From Bacteroidota bacterium (lineage in GTDB: Bacteria; Bacteroidota; Bacteroidia; Chitinophagales; Chitinophagaceae): a stretch of DNA of 64,000 bases. A model generated the notes under the pieces. It was not told the DNA's origin, did no database searches, and saw nothing but the letters and a program-made list of their open reading frames with translations. The stretch lies in assembly GCA_018267965.1 (NCBI GenBank), contig JAFDXK010000001.1, positions 372,001 through 436,000 of the forward strand, written 5' to 3'. The translations under genes were made by a program, and so were the position numbers. This document shows, one piece after another, positions 5,810-45,249 of this stretch. The first letter of the stretch is position 1; each line of letters starts with the position of its first letter.

Positions 5810-6225
5810 AGTTTTTGTTTGATAAGTGATGGAATAATAGTCCTTATCTTTTTGCCCCATCCGCCGCTCATCATACGTTTTAATAAATTGCCCAGGATAC
5901 CTTCAAAGCCGAAGTGTTCTAATAGCAGTAGCGTACCGTCGTCTTTGGGTTGCAGTGTAAAACGTACTGTTGTTGGTTGCTTCATCCAGCCTCCCTGCCA
6001 GGTATACACCAGCAGTTTGTTTTCCACTACATCTATCACTTCGCATTGAATGTTGCCGTCAAACCCCGGCATAGCCGGCATTTTGAAATAGCATTTATAA
6101 CCTATCTCCGGTTTGAAGTTTGTTTCCATCAGCCATTCTGATATAAGGTTACAGTCGGTAATAGCCAACCATACCTTATCAACAGGCGCTTCGATGAACT
6201 GCTCTATTTTTATTTGTTCTTTCAT
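5806..6225 (-). CDS. SRPBCC (AHSA1-type) domain protein
   Basis: 139 residues of START-like fold: KIEQFIEAPVDKVWLAITD at the N-terminus, a central LVYTWQGGWMK and VRFTLQPKDDGTLLLLEHFGF, and a long C-terminal helix. The family binds hydrophobic ligands or acts as an Hsp90 co-chaperone-like domain; which applies here is unknown. It is the first gene of a three-gene operon with start-stop overlaps (SRPBCC, HTH repressor, DUF4287), and its promoter contains two palindromes likely bound by the downstream repressor. Confidence 0.85.
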   Translation of the reverse strand: MKEQIKIEQFIEAPVDKVWLAITDCNLISEWLMETNFKPEIGYKCYFKMPAMPGFDGNIQCEVIDVVENKLLVYTWQGGWMKQPTTVRFTLQPKDDGTLLLLEHFGFEGILGNLLKRMMSGGWGKKIRTIIPSLIKQKL

Positions 6226-41810: not shown

Positions 41811-41818
41811 AATTTTTA
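41811..41818. repeat. Target-site duplication, left copy
   Basis: AATTTTTA, identical to the bases just outside the right inverted repeat at 45242-45249. Eight bases is the duplication size known for IS1595-family elements. Confidence 0.9.
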
Positions 41819-41845
41819 GGTAACTATACCGAGTTACACGTAGAT
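41819..41845 (+). repeat. Left terminal inverted repeat
   Basis: Begins GGTAACTATACCGAG and ends CACGTAGAT; 27 of 27 bases match the reverse complement of 45215-45241. Its last base is the first base of the stop codon of the outermost passenger gene. Confidence 0.92.
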
Positions 41846-42360
41846 TATACTAAACCTGAATTTATTTCGTGATATGGGTCGTAAAACAAGATATACAATA
41901 CGGCGTGTGGTCCAACCATAAAGTATATACGAGGACACTTGATGCCAGTCGAGCGCGAAGCTTGCTTATTTGATGTGTATAGCCCAACTTGCCCGACTAC
42001 AGGAGTTTCTTCTGGTCTTAGATTTTCTTTCTTTAGCACAACCTTAAGTAGTTCTTTTATTTTAGCATTTGGGTTATTATAGAAGTGAATATGCTCTTTG
42101 TGGCTGGAGTGGTCTATTAAGTCGTTTATTGTAAGCTTAGAAAGTTTTTTTAAGTTCATAAAATACGAAACGATGTCAGTATTATCTAAGCATTGTTGCT
42201 GGAAGGAATACTCTGTTTCATCCAAGTCAATATAATCATAACCAAACAATGGAGTTCTATGGTAATGTTTGCCGACGTTGGCGTATTTCCTGTTATTGAA
42301 ATTGTATTTAACAGGTTTTTCGTCCTCATCGTCTGGGATGTCGGTAAATCGGTAGGTCAT
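41845..42360 (-). CDS. Candidate toxin or partner of the Panacea protein
   Basis: 171 residues, soluble, basic-acidic mixed: DIPDDEDEKPVKYNFNN at the start, a helical middle (DIVSYFMNLKKLSKLTINDLI), and a beta-rich end PRIYFMVGPHAVLYILFYDPYHEI. No known toxin fold (RelE, HicA, Fic, ADP-ribosyltransferase) was recognised. It follows the Panacea gene by 17 bases on the same strand; Panacea proteins are antitoxins that pair with many unrelated toxins, so this is a plausible unknown toxin. The stop codon touches the left inverted repeat. Confidence 0.65.
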   Translation of the reverse strand: MTYRFTDIPDDEDEKPVKYNFNNRKYANVGKHYHRTPLFGYDYIDLDETEYSFQQQCLDNTDIVSYFMNLKKLSKLTINDLIDHSSHKEHIHFYNNPNAKIKELLKVVLKKENLRPEETPVVGQVGLYTSNKQASRSTGIKCPRIYFMVGPHAVLYILFYDPYHEINSGLV

Positions 42361-42377
42361 AGCGTAGGAGGATTTTA

Positions 42378-42878
42378 TTAACTTTCCGCTCTTTCCTTGT
42401 AATACGTATATATGACTTCTAGGTCTATCTTATTATCAGAATACTCAAAAGGAGCTAGTCCTTTCCTTGCTTCATTCCATGGCTTTTCAGAATGCGTAAG
42501 CAGTACTAATTTTTCGTGTGACATTGTGCCATAGTGCAGAAGTATGGCTTCTAAAAAATCCCATTGCTCTTTGTCTAAATCCAATGCCTTAACAGCATTA
42601 TCGTAGTGTTCTTCGCTCTTTTCTGGATTAGTGTAAGTAATATGAGGGTAAGCTCCTAAATTCTTATATTGGTTATAAACCGACCTGTATACCGGCCCGT
42701 TTACCCAGGCTTCTGGGGCTTCATCAAAAATCAATTCTTTACCAAAATACACCATGTGCCAAGCTTGTATGTAATACAATAGCTTTTGCAATTTTAAATG
42801 GTTAACCTGTATTTGGCTTTTCAAAAGATGGTGCAATACAAAATTGGCAACATTTAATATGTTAGCTCTTTTTGACAT
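42378..42878 (-). CDS. Panacea (SocA/GepA-like, DUF4065) domain protein, likely antitoxin
   Basis: 166 residues from MSKRANILNVANFVL; the frame extends 27 codons upstream to a second possible ATG (42959) close to the predicted promoter, so the start is uncertain. Panacea hallmarks: VNHLKLQKLLYYIQAWHMVYFGKELI, then PEAWVNGPVYRSVYNQYKN (read as LKLQKLLYYIQAWH and WVNGPVYRSVYNQY) and the C-terminal LVLLTHSEKPWNEARKG. The domain acts as an antitoxin in many two-gene modules and as a proteolysis adaptor in SocA. First gene of the leftward passenger operon. Confidence 0.85.
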   Translation of the reverse strand: MSKRANILNVANFVLHHLLKSQIQVNHLKLQKLLYYIQAWHMVYFGKELIFDEAPEAWVNGPVYRSVYNQYKNLGAYPHITYTNPEKSEEHYDNAVKALDLDKEQWDFLEAILLHYGTMSHEKLVLLTHSEKPWNEARKGLAPFEYSDNKIDLEVIYTYYKERAES

Positions 42879-42969
42879 AAAAGATTCGGTGGTAGATGCC
42901 ACTAAGGTAGTTAGCCATTTTCTCATTTCACAATATATCTTACATATTAACGTTTTCATGGGATTTTAT

Positions 42970-43007
42970 TGTACAAATGTACATAAAAAATTGAACATAA
43001 TTACAAA
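42970..43007 (-). promoter_or_regulatory. Promoter and palindrome of the Panacea operon
   Basis: On the minus strand a perfect -7 box TACATTTG (plus 42974-42981) lies 22 bases from TTTG (plus 43004-43007). TGTACAAATGTACA (42970-42983) is a near-perfect palindrome over the -7 box, as expected for an autoregulated antitoxin operon. Confidence 0.6.
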
Positions 43008-43025
43008 AAATGTGGATAACTTTTA

Positions 43026-43067
43026 ACGTGTAACTTATTCTAATTTAGAATAATTGCATTATCTTTG
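43026..43067 (+). promoter_or_regulatory. Transposase promoter with internal copy of terminal-repeat bases
   Basis: TATCTTTG (43060-43067) fits the -7 consensus and lies 22 bases before the transposase ATG. ATTCTAA-T-TTAGAAT (43037-43051) is a perfect inverted repeat in the -33 region. ACGTGTAACT at 43026-43035 is identical to ten bases of the terminal repeat (45219-45228). Confidence 0.55.
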
Positions 43068-43089
43068 TTTAATAAAAGGCAATCAAAAA

Positions 43090-44067
43090 ATGGATTTCAC
43101 TTTCAAGACAATAGCAGAATTTAACGACTACTTTAAAGATGAAAAGACTTGTTATGAGTTCTTAGAATTGCAACGTTGGGATGGTACGCCAGTTTGTCCT
43201 CACTGTGGCTCTGTGAAGAAGCCATATAATGTAAAAGCGCGCAGTAAAGTTGCAGCTATTCAAGAAATCCCACATTATCGTTGTGCCGAAAAAGAATGTA
43301 GTTTGCCCTTCACAGTCCGCACTGGCAGCATATTTGAAGGTTCTAAAGTTGAATTGAAAAAATGGTTTCAGGCTGCCTATGAAATATCTACACGCAAAAA
43401 AGGTATTAGTAGTTTAGAGTTAGCGGAACGTATTGACGTAAGTCAAAAAACAGCGTGGTTTATTAATCATCGTTTGCGCAATATGCTCAAAGATACCAAC
43501 CCTGAATTACTTACAGGAATAGTCGAAGCTGATGAAACATATGTTGGCGGCAAATTGAAGAATAAGCACGAAAGCAAAAAGAGAAAAGAAAAGACTAAAT
43601 ATGGTCGCTTTTATAACACAGGGGATAAAACAACTGTTGTAGGCTTATTGCAACGTGATGGCAAGGTTGTTACCTACGTAACGCCTAACGCGGAAGCCGC
43701 AACTATTGCCCCTATTATGGTAGCGCACTTAGATAAGGACGCAACACTGATTACCGACGACCATAAATCATATAAAGAAGTAGGTAAAAATTATAAGCAT
43801 CTTATGGTAAAGACTACGTATGGGAGCTATGTAACTCATGGCAACGTTCATACCAACACAATAGAGGGCTTTTGGTCTCAATTGAAAAGGGGTATTATTG
43901 GCACATTCCATGTAGTTAGCCCTAAGCACTTACAGAGATACTGCAATGAGTTTAGCTATCGCTATAACAATAAGGGTGTAAGCAATATTGAAAGGTTTGC
44001 AGAAAGTATTAAACAGTGTGCGAATACAAGGTTGACATATAAATCATTGATTAGCAACGAACAATAA
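43090..44067 (+). CDS. IS1595-family (ISXO2-like) transposase
   Basis: 325 residues from MDFTFKTIAEF; an in-frame TTG 12 codons earlier lies in the promoter. N-terminal zinc ribbon: Cys36, Cys39 (CPHCGS) and Cys65, Cys70. Helical DNA-binding region KGISSLELAERIDVSQKTAW. Catalytic DDE-type core: Asp148 in VEADETYVGGK, Asp223/224 in LITDDHKSYKE, and HTNTIEGFWSQLKRGIIG with Asn256, Glu259 and Lys266, ending RYCNEFSYRYNNK. Complete with no frameshift, so the element is probably active. Confidence 0.93.
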   Translation: MDFTFKTIAEFNDYFKDEKTCYEFLELQRWDGTPVCPHCGSVKKPYNVKARSKVAAIQEIPHYRCAEKECSLPFTVRTGSIFEGSKVELKKWFQAAYEISTRKKGISSLELAERIDVSQKTAWFINHRLRNMLKDTNPELLTGIVEADETYVGGKLKNKHESKKRKEKTKYGRFYNTGDKTTVVGLLQRDGKVVTYVTPNAEAATIAPIMVAHLDKDATLITDDHKSYKEVGKNYKHLMVKTTYGSYVTHGNVHTNTIEGFWSQLKRGIIGTFHVVSPKHLQRYCNEFSYRYNNKGVSNIERFAESIKQCANTRLTYKSLISNEQ

Positions 44068-44123
44068 ATACATTTGCTTAATAAAAATATTATCTATACA
44101 TTTGTATTACAATAAGCAAGAAA

Positions 44124-44159
44124 GCCCCGTAAAAACGGGGCGACCATCTACGAAATGGT
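44124..44159 (+). terminator. Double hairpin after the transposase
   Basis: GCCCCGT/ACGGGGC (44124-44130 with 44135-44141) is followed by ACCAT/ATGGT (44143-44147 with 44155-44159) and TTTCTT. The next 160 bases, up to the winged-helix-like gene, hold no convincing gene; a further hairpin AGCCACC/GGTGGCT lies at 44295-44313 and may end that gene's transcript. Confidence 0.5.
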
Positions 44160-44319
44160 TTCTTGTCGTTGACTGTCAAAGTTCTTTGTTGGTGTGTTTC
44201 GGTACGGTTAATGAACCGCCTTACTTACCAAAACTCTAATGTGGTCGATAGGATGCTTTTCTACCCATAAGAGCTTATTAATCAACTGTTTGCTAGCCAC
44301 CAATAAGGTGGCTATTTCT

Positions 44320-44850
44320 TTATAATGAGATAACTTCCTGTCCGTTATTACTAAAGAAGTTTTCATCGTATTTGTACTTACTTATAATTTCCCCTTTATC
44401 GTCAATCCAGTGCTTACTACCCCATACTGTCAAGGCGTTTGATTTGCCCACCTTTTTGTTTACAAGATTGTACTCAGGAACGCCCTTTAGCGTTGATAAT
44501 GTTGGGGATACTTGAGATATAACACCTTCAACTGTGCCCTTGCCCTCCAATTTGTGTATAATGTTCGCTATCTCTCTTACAAAAAGAAAATGACCTTCAG
44601 TCTTAATAACAAAAGCTACTTTATTTCTAATAGTCCAATTCTTATTGTATTTCGCGTACTTATCAGATTCTTTATTGTTTGATGAATCAATGGGCACAAA
44701 AGTGTAACCATTGCTATTAGACATAGGCTGGTAGCCACTCTTTGGCTGTGATTGCTTGAGTTGAGATAAAAAATTATCAATAGAAGCCACCCTATTCAAG
44801 AGCTCTTGTTTCTCTTTTTCTAAGGTTTCAATTATCACTCTGTTATCCAT
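44320..44850 (-). CDS. Coiled-coil and winged-helix-like protein, transposon passenger
   Basis: 176 residues from the ATG at 44850, chosen because AAGGGGG lies a few bases upstream, a rare clear Shine-Dalgarno in this window. Residues 1-35 are a coiled coil (RVIIETLEKEKQELLNRV). Residues 70-150 resemble a HARE-HTH-like winged helix: TIRNKVAFVIKTEGHFLFV, REIANIIHKLEGKG, VSPTLSTLKGVPEYNLV, ALTVWGSKHW. It may be a DNA-binding regulator of the element or a defence-related sensor; this is inference from pattern only. Confidence 0.65.
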   Translation of the reverse strand: MDNRVIIETLEKEKQELLNRVASIDNFLSQLKQSQPKSGYQPMSNSNGYTFVPIDSSNNKESDKYAKYNKNWTIRNKVAFVIKTEGHFLFVREIANIIHKLEGKGTVEGVISQVSPTLSTLKGVPEYNLVNKKVGKSNALTVWGSKHWIDDKGEIISKYKYDENFFSNNGQEVISL

Positions 44851-45043
44851 TTTTACCCCCTTTTTTCTTTGAATATTGCACAAATCTAAGTCGTTGCAAG
44901 ATATCTACCAAATATTTATTAGAAAGGAAAATAGGACGGCAATAGGACGAGAATAATAAATAACCTTAAAACATTTGTCCAGTCTATAATAGCTCGTTAT
45001 AAGACCATTGTCTATTGAACTAAAAAAAATTGTAAATTACACT

Positions 45044-45178
45044 ATGTCTAAGGTGAAAAAAGCAAAAAAACGAGGCAAATACGACGAAAAACTGGCGGTT
45101 AAAGGTTCTTTCCTTGACATTATGCAGGCAGCAGTAAAGAACGCCAACAATAAGAGCGCGCCTAAGAAAAAATCGTAA
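45044..45178 (+). CDS. 44-residue basic small protein
   Basis: Begins MSKVKKAKKRGKYDEKLAV, continues KGSFLDIMQAAVKNAN and ends APKKKS. The pattern basic start, KYDEKL, GSF, hydrophobic helix, basic end is one I recall from short hypothetical proteins widespread in Bacteroidota. It lies inside the transposon, 36 bases before the right inverted repeat. Possibly nucleic-acid binding. No function is known to me. Confidence 0.6.
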   Translation: MSKVKKAKKRGKYDEKLAVKGSFLDIMQAAVKNANNKSAPKKKS

Positions 45179-45214
45179 CAATTTCTCGCTACGGCTTATT
45201 TATAATTGTCGTTT

Positions 45215-45241
45215 ATCTACGTGTAACTCGGTATAGTTACC
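45215..45241 (-). repeat. Right terminal inverted repeat
   Basis: Reads ATCTACGTG ... ATAGTTACC on the plus strand; identical to the left repeat in reverse complement over 27 bases. Confidence 0.92.
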
Positions 45242-45249
45242 AATTTTTA
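45242..45249. repeat. Target-site duplication, right copy
   Basis: AATTTTTA, identical to 41811-41818. Confidence 0.9.

Follow-up and report, generated by a model that had tools for sequence, protein, structure and literature searches.

An IS1595-type transposon of Bacteroidota with exchangeable cargo, a conserved small basic-protein gene and a structured RNA

Passenger genes have been described in IS1595 elements before. In the available parts of two reports (PMC5704250, PMC3129680), the 'transporter IS' (tIS) elements tISCpe8 and MTnSag1/tISSag10 combine an IS1595 DDE transposase, defined ends and passenger genes; tISCpe8 carries lincomycin resistance, and both elements can be mobilised by conjugative elements. 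Copying excision via a circle has been suggested for related IS1595 elements in the accessible part of one of them (PMC5704250). The element described here lies in a 64,000-nt stretch of a Chitinophagaceae (Bacteroidota) genome (contig JAFDXK010000001.1, positions 372,001 to 436,000), hereafter the window, whose coordinates are used throughout; L-numbers denote loci and G-numbers genomes. It shares the three tIS features and differs in having a toxin-antitoxin-like pair, a conserved basic-protein gene and a structured RNA. With good confidence, it can be described as an intact, single-copy IS1595 cargo transposon in which a swappable Panacea module accompanies a constant basic-protein gene and a frequent RNA.

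The element, its transposase and its insertion site

Members of the IS1595 family have terminal inverted repeats of about 20-30 bp whose first letters are GG, and their target duplications measure 8 bp. The window element (41819-45241, 3,423 bp; Table 1) is an IS1595-type transposon whose 27-bp arms are fully complementary and open with GGTAACTATACC, and the 8-bp AATTTTTA stands at both flanks. Bare AATTTTTA is frequent (11 occurrences on both strands of the window against 10.1 expected), so that the weight comes from its exact placement at both ends of a perfect 27-bp repeat. This repeat occurs at only two places in the 3.74-Mb genome, up to three mismatches being allowed, and the element is thus present there as a single copy.

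The transposase is an intact 325-aa open reading frame (ORF) with both the zinc ribbon and the DDE domain of IS1595 type, and all models score above their cut-offs (PF12762, 1.8e-42; PF12760, 5.4e-10; NF033547, 202 bits against 75). It would act on the 27-bp ends, producing 8-bp duplications. A first-pass annotation, made from the letters alone, had described the identical inverted repeats, the perfect duplication, an intact ISXO2-like transposase and a stop codon at the last base of the left repeat; all four hold, the overlap of the left gene with that repeat falling at 41845. The four unrelated genes that it listed are indeed four genes, but two of them form one toxin-antitoxin-like operon, the others being a coiled-coil gene and a small basic-protein gene. 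The Panacea-type character of the left pair and the structured RNA beside the transposase go beyond that reading. From left to right the order is toxin-like gene (-), Panacea antitoxin gene (-), transposase gene (+), RNA (+), coiled-coil gene (-) and 44-aa gene (+).

Table 1. Parts of the window element and its flanks
Feature	Position	Strand	Evidence or remark
Left target duplication AATTTTTA, 8 bp	41811..41818	.	sequence
Left terminal inverted repeat, 27 bp	41819..41845	+	100% complementary to right arm
Probable toxin of Panacea pair, 171 aa	41845..42360	-	operon position and weak colinear likeness to partners in L030, L040/L099, L138, L146 (MAG6450-like)
Panacea-domain antitoxin (PanA), 193 aa, or 166 aa from Met28 at 42878	42378..42959	-	PF13274, 2.5e-19
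IS1595-family (ISXO2-like) DDE transposase, 325 aa, intact ORF	43090..44067	+	PF12762, PF12760, NF033547
TACATTTG, TAnnTTTG box just before RNA	44097..44104	+	sequence
Three-way-junction RNA, type 1	44117..44165	+	fold z -4.56; 0/200 shuffles fold as well
176-aa accessory protein, N-terminal coiled coil (187 aa from TTG at 44883)	44320..44850	-	relative in G097
44-aa Lys-rich protein, core VKGSFLDIMQAAVK	45044..45178	+	stop 63 bp from element end, outward-facing
Right terminal inverted repeat, 27 bp	45215..45241	-	100% complementary to left arm
Right target duplication AATTTTTA, 8 bp	45242..45249	.	sequence

Transposition of elements of this kind is suggested by the draft genome G089, in which copies of a relative occupy multiple sites. 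A contig of 3.4 kb there comprises a whole element, and its ends agree at every base (148/148 or 146/146) with four contig edges. One insertion, with the duplication AATTTATT, is made up of two of these edges; the other two mismatch each other, which gives at least three insertion sites. Against this count, contig edges of a draft assembly may mix strains.

A comparison with empty sites had also been proposed. The SpeE-like gene lies directly downstream of the M48 gene, without the element, in 12 of 14 other genomes of the genus (best M48 match each), a different neighbour being found in the remaining two. The bases of the site are too diverged among these genomes for a single AATTTTTA, or a base-exact empty site, to be shown.

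Exchange of cargo among related elements

Relatives were collected from a scan of named genomes (47 loci) and from a search of 195 family genomes, with matches in 72; 40 regions were fetched around family-genome transposase matches and 20 around further transposase and Panacea rows. Around each transposase match covering at least about 150 query residues, shorter matches being dropped before counting, a script sought inverted ends and a target duplication (at least 7/8 demanded, 8/8 favoured). Elements were delimited at 56 of the 99 transposase rows (53/87 and 3/12, window included), all with an 8/8 duplication. At least two places were counted twice among the 99 rows (L040 = L099 and L115 = L174, none delimited), and one or two of the 56 elements (L112 and L084, with atypical ends) are possibly miscalled. 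All 56 measure 2,233-6,531 bp, with no bare insertion sequence of about 1 kb among them, and thus every one carries cargo. The 55 other transposases are 31.7-65.0% identical to that of the window (tblastn). One of the relatives, L005, belongs to the cultured Flavipsychrobacter stenotrophus. The end consensus is GGTAACTATACCCAnTTACACG in the window clade, defined by at least 55% transposase identity (16 loci), and GGTAACTATATACCnGTTnGACCA-like or otherwise elsewhere.

The cargo is a replaceable module: it differs from element to element, and relatives with the same kind of ends and 55-65% identical transposases hold other genes, often of addiction or defence type. Such genes (toxin-antitoxin, abortive infection, restriction) occur in at least 18 of the 56 elements, as called by Pfam, by blastp kinship for L088, L090 and L094, and by reading for the third GmrSD member, assigned to L032. 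They comprise Panacea (window, L030, L166), PIN (L021, L091), DUF433 with DUF5615 (L046, L090), IrrE-like and/or NYN (L081, L088, L102), GmrSD (L022, L094, L032), AAA_21/15 (L014, L037), RhuM with Abi_2 (L120), Fic (L087) and MmeI (L029) genes. Moreover, L215 (139-2127, 1,989 bp) has clade-type ends with two mismatches each, an 8/8 duplication TAAAAAAA and no transposase match; its cargo is a restriction-modification pair, a methylase (PF01555, 6.1e-47) with a HindIII-type endonuclease (PF09518, 5.9e-117). When 139 cargo ORFs of at least 115 aa were pooled, 46 Pfam families matched at E 0.001, as did 201 PADLOC models, many overlapping one another; among the matches listed (25 of the 201 models), RmrA, PD-T4-4_A, PD-Lambda-2_B and AriA each match two proteins. 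A PADLOC scan of five of the window proteins gave no match.

Two points count against a general association with addiction or defence. No such cargo could be called in 38 of the 56 elements, in some since nothing matched, and the cargo proteins were partly scanned as a pool and not each mapped singly to an element. The toxin-antitoxin genes might then be incidental hitchhikers without a role for the element, such genes being prone to cluster near mobile DNA; their occurrence near transposases is noted in the available part of the Panacea study (PMC8832971), and the 38 elements fit this picture. It seems a somewhat unlikely explanation: the genes are enclosed by paired ends with target duplications, which is more than proximity, at least five kinds of addiction or defence gene each recur in at least two elements, and the transposase-less element carries a restriction-modification pair only.

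The left pair of the window element shows the organisation of PanAT systems. The Panacea (DUF4065) domain of the antitoxin scores 70.7 bits against a cut-off of 25.7, and its gene lies 17 nt upstream of the toxin gene, within the 100 nt allowed for such pairs in the accessible text of the defining study (PMC8832971). The same gene order, with MAG6450-like partners, is found in L030, L099, L138 and L146. The window antitoxin is 33% identical to that of L030 and, at 74.6 bits, stays below the cut-off of 190 of the SocA equivalog NF047745. Panacea rows number 52 in the 195 family genomes. Four of them are found within 500 bp of an IS1595 transposase row (own genome, G144, G015 and G086), a fifth (G097) about 140 bp from a matching end with two mismatches, and a sixth case, outside this sample, is L030 (Mucilaginibacter). 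A rough estimate of random expectation, for genomes of about 4.5 Mb and about 150 transposase rows, is roughly 0.1 Panacea rows within 5 kb. The partners differ, being MAG6450-like below the family cut-off in L030 and G144 and small proteins without a Pfam match in G015, G086 and G097.

The 171-aa gene probably encodes a toxin, which the Panacea protein would neutralise. It matches no Pfam family above cut-off and not the MAG6450 family NF046006; against the cut-off of 40 of the latter, the partners score 23.9 (L138), 23.3 (L030) and 13.6 bits (L099), with no match for L146. Several results tell against the assignment, which draws on operon position and a weak profile match: the profile comparison of the window toxin with the MAG6450-like partners gave an hhalign probability of 10.7 (E 0.0029 for one comparison), it was missed by a family search that used the other four partner proteins, and its AlphaFold prediction from a three-row alignment has a mean pLDDT of 33. 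In a phylum sample of 395 genomes, no relative of this protein was found in the 394 besides its own, nor did plasmids, phages or viral contigs yield one. A match to Lit in Pfam (E 0.11) is below cut-off and was taken as noise.

Other genes recur among the relatives. A P63C-domain gene is found in L013, L014, L018, L025 and L118, in the first four together with a short IS1595 zinc-ribbon protein. A cargo protein of 252-313 aa is shared by L005, L007, L012, L033, L085 and L250; it has no Pfam match in L007, and in L250 a relative recognised by eye lies beside an RNA copy without transposase. In eight loci of one transposase subclade (L013, L014, L018, L022, L023, L025, L029, L032), a 69-76-aa regulator, XRE-like by eye, begins at the transposase stop codon. 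Three elements that belong to one subclade contain a tRNA-Ser-like gene upstream of their transposase (L010 4809-4881, L011 2746-2819, L098 5901-5973), and the L016 element contains a tRNA with a CTA anticodon (6089-6162). The window genome has three more delimited IS1595 cargo elements: L081 (contig 10, 3223-7449), L082 (contig 7, 5323-8266) and L084 (contig 5, 5239-8370); L081 has IrrE-like and NYN genes as well as a basic-protein gene and a type-2 RNA.

As to target sites, several elements lie in a palindrome loop, the 8-bp duplication being the loop. When each site is compared with 200 random places of its own locus, 11 of the 56 reach p<=0.025, where 1.4 would be expected: L004, L007, L013, L014, L018, L029, L031 and L081, plus L017, L021 and L086. 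The signal is weaker at the window site (p 0.08). Some 8-base flanks are shared between loci (TGTCCCCA by L013 and the vicinity of L218; TATCAAGA by L014, the vicinity of L247 and, reversed, L036). They had raised the suspicion that relatives target tRNA genes, which ARAGORN did not support. Palindromes centred on the duplication explain part of the sites better than tRNA targeting.

The coiled-coil gene of the window element matches no Pfam family, and the single-sequence structure prediction of its 176-aa product is poor. The protein has two other matches in the 195 genomes, one of them weak; its relative in G097 lies close to another RNA copy. An ORF at 44208-44366 (52 aa) was not counted as a gene: it overlaps the longer-ORF neighbourhood of the 176-aa gene and has no Pfam or NCBIfam match, relatives not having been sought.

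The small basic-protein gene and the structured RNA

The constant equipment of the transposon clade consists of the transposase, the ends and an outward-facing gene for a basic protein of 44-65 aa. A motif search found this Lys-rich gene in 20 of 63 loci (products of 36-65 aa), a lower bound because divergent forms were later seen in L014, L081, L088 and L247. It is present in 14 of the 16 clade loci (window, L004-L011, L021, L033, L046, L098, L048) with products of 44-65 aa; L048 (G079 contig 395) is counted here with a transposase match of only 82 residues and a basic gene from the 195-genome search. The gene is missing from the other two loci: in L003 the contig begins 701 bp ahead of the transposase, and in L040/L099 the second end was not found. 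In the transposase tree, all 11 rows of a clade with 100/100 support have the gene. It faces outward in 18/18 copies inside elements with known bounds (L008 by repeats only). In the window, L006, L010, L011, L021, L046 and L098, 59-64 bp separate its stop from the end of the element. The gene is under purifying selection: pairwise single-base codon differences among 13 clade sequences are 739 synonymous and 507 nonsynonymous, a synonymous fraction of 0.593 against 0.191 expected. The search of the 195 genomes gave 14 matches, all inside a delimited element, near a matching end or at most about 2.1 kb from a transposase; that in G156 is tied to an element by a three-mismatch end alone, and such end matches are partly chance (48, against 24 in a reversed-pattern control). 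The window protein has no Pfam or NCBIfam match.

As judged from sequence, these elements frequently also contain a structured RNA that has a promoter box of its own. The TAnnTTTG box, which we take to be a -7 box of Bacteroidota type, directly precedes 18 of the 22 RNA copies, and the RNA is presumably transcribed. Two types can be distinguished. L033 and L007 share the type-1 fold of the window; comparison of the window with L033 shows one covarying pair, and a model built from these two recovers L007 at 1.8e-7. Type 2, a longer version, occurs in L004, L013, L025, L081 and L070. Its model R1 (built from L004, L025 and L081) matches L013, L014, L088, L096, L012, L018, L218, L220 and L223 at E <1e-3, and L005 weakly. 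Over 13 type-2 rows, 86.8% of cells pair, against 68.1% after shuffling and 31-54% after sliding, and both sides have changed in 21 of 28 pairs; 10 of the 13 rows were not in the R1 build. From a sequence-only alignment of 10 rows, RNAalifold recovers three of the four helices, and 13 of their 19 pairs show compensation. Applied to 191 whole genomes, the refined model R2 identifies 12 copies, five of them by a transposase row (G000, G173, G136, G188, G058) and four near a matching end (0-1 mismatches in G062, G144 and G183, three in G097); the end scan around RNA copies tolerated six mismatches and was run without a control. At the gathering score, the 4227 families of Rfam 15 gave no match in the window element and six relative loci, except a tmRNA outside the L025 element, and the window RNA had only chance-level matches at E up to 10.

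A divergent basic-protein gene starts 3-49 nt away at 11 of the 22 RNA places (nine by motif; L014 and L247 by eye). It seems conceivable, if rather speculative, that the basic protein (44-65 aa) and the often divergent three-way-junction RNA act together, as a ribonucleoprotein or as a regulatory pair, to control transposition or the choice of target. The reading of RNA and peptide as a unit meets several difficulties. The RNA lies beside the motif-found basic gene in 7 of 20 loci and not in the other 13. The window is one of the latter: about 880 bp separate RNA and gene there, and the two are not divergently oriented. Models R1 and R2 do not recover the window RNA, so that the unity of the two types would depend on position, promoter and shape. 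The count of 21 pairs comes from a structure-fitted alignment, addition of the 3'-divergent L220 and L223 (12 rows) leaves RNAalifold with one helix only, and three of the 12 R2 copies (G088, G070, G050) have no recognisable end or transposase.

The RNA could also be a bidirectional terminator or a leader between genes, since it ends near the 3' end of a convergent gene in eight elements examined by eye (window, L004, L007, L013, L014, L025, L033, L081). This is improbable in view of the box before most copies and of a three-way junction whose compensatory changes in three helices exceed the needs of a terminator; nor does a convincing same-strand gene follow the RNA in those eight elements.

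Interpretation and comparison with described systems

The first-pass annotation had regarded the passenger genes as fixed machinery of the element, a constant travelling set, from their tightness against the ends, and the constancy of the 44-aa gene in the clade agrees with this. Such closeness is not evidence of fixation, and the idea is very improbable: among the 11 clade elements, that of the window counted, whose ends are complete, the one cargo family shared besides the basic protein is that of 252-313 aa (L005, L007, L033; blastp 1e-4), a further four-member cluster being an antisense or RNA-region artefact, a Panacea pair is present in L040/L099, outside these 11, and relatives of the 176-aa protein are scarce. 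The different cargo of elements with similar repeats and 55-65% identical transposases is the outcome that the annotation itself had named as refuting its model. It is refuted for the toxin-antitoxin pair and stands for the 44-aa gene only.

The view of a transposon with replaceable cargo and a small set of parts of its own can be put as follows. The transposase and ends would move the unit, as its anatomy and the multi-site copies of a relative suggest. The Panacea operon would most likely retain the element by penalising its loss and/or act against phages, to judge from its family in the accessible part of the literature (PMC8832971). Peptide and RNA seem most likely to serve the element itself, a view held with about even confidence; they may tune transposase expression or transposition, or bind the ends or each other.

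Small transposons are usually taken for bare insertion sequences. In this group all delimited members bear cargo, and the addiction, abortive-infection and restriction genes vary from one close relative to another. These elements offer a concrete small vehicle for moving addiction, abortive-infection and restriction modules in Bacteroidota and for exchanging their partners, a process on which the Panacea authors speculate in the part of their text available (PMC8832971). The conserved peptide gene and the structured RNA raise the testable question of RNA-peptide accessories in simple DDE transposons. If such a pair does control transposition or target choice, it would be an RNA-plus-peptide component so far unknown in the IS1595 transposase family, borne by elements that exchange addiction and defence modules. 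In the literature searched (titles and the beginnings of abstracts, most subscription papers being outside reach), no such elements with toxin-antitoxin cargo, small gene or RNA were found; within it, recurrent addiction or defence cargo and the peptide-RNA pair appear new.

Three further systems invite comparison, each known from the accessible parts of its report. In PanAT systems (Kurata 2022, PMC8832971), the Panacea gene likewise lies just upstream of a toxin-like gene, and PanATs have been noted near transposase genes; the window pair, in contrast, is delimited inside a transposon by ends and duplication, and its partner protein is very divergent. Tn3-family transposons (Lima-Mendez 2020, PMC7157771) resemble the window element in holding a toxin-antitoxin pair inside a DDE transposon near the transposase gene, for which stabilisation has been proposed. 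The window element differs in its transposase family, shows no resolvase, and belongs to a group whose module type varies among close relatives. Finally, Tn7-like transposons (Benler 2021, PMC8649781) have cargo similarly rich in restriction, toxin-antitoxin and defence genes, whereas the IS1595 elements are far smaller (2.2-6.5 kb) and rely on a single transposase of another family, no target-selector proteins being recognised in them.

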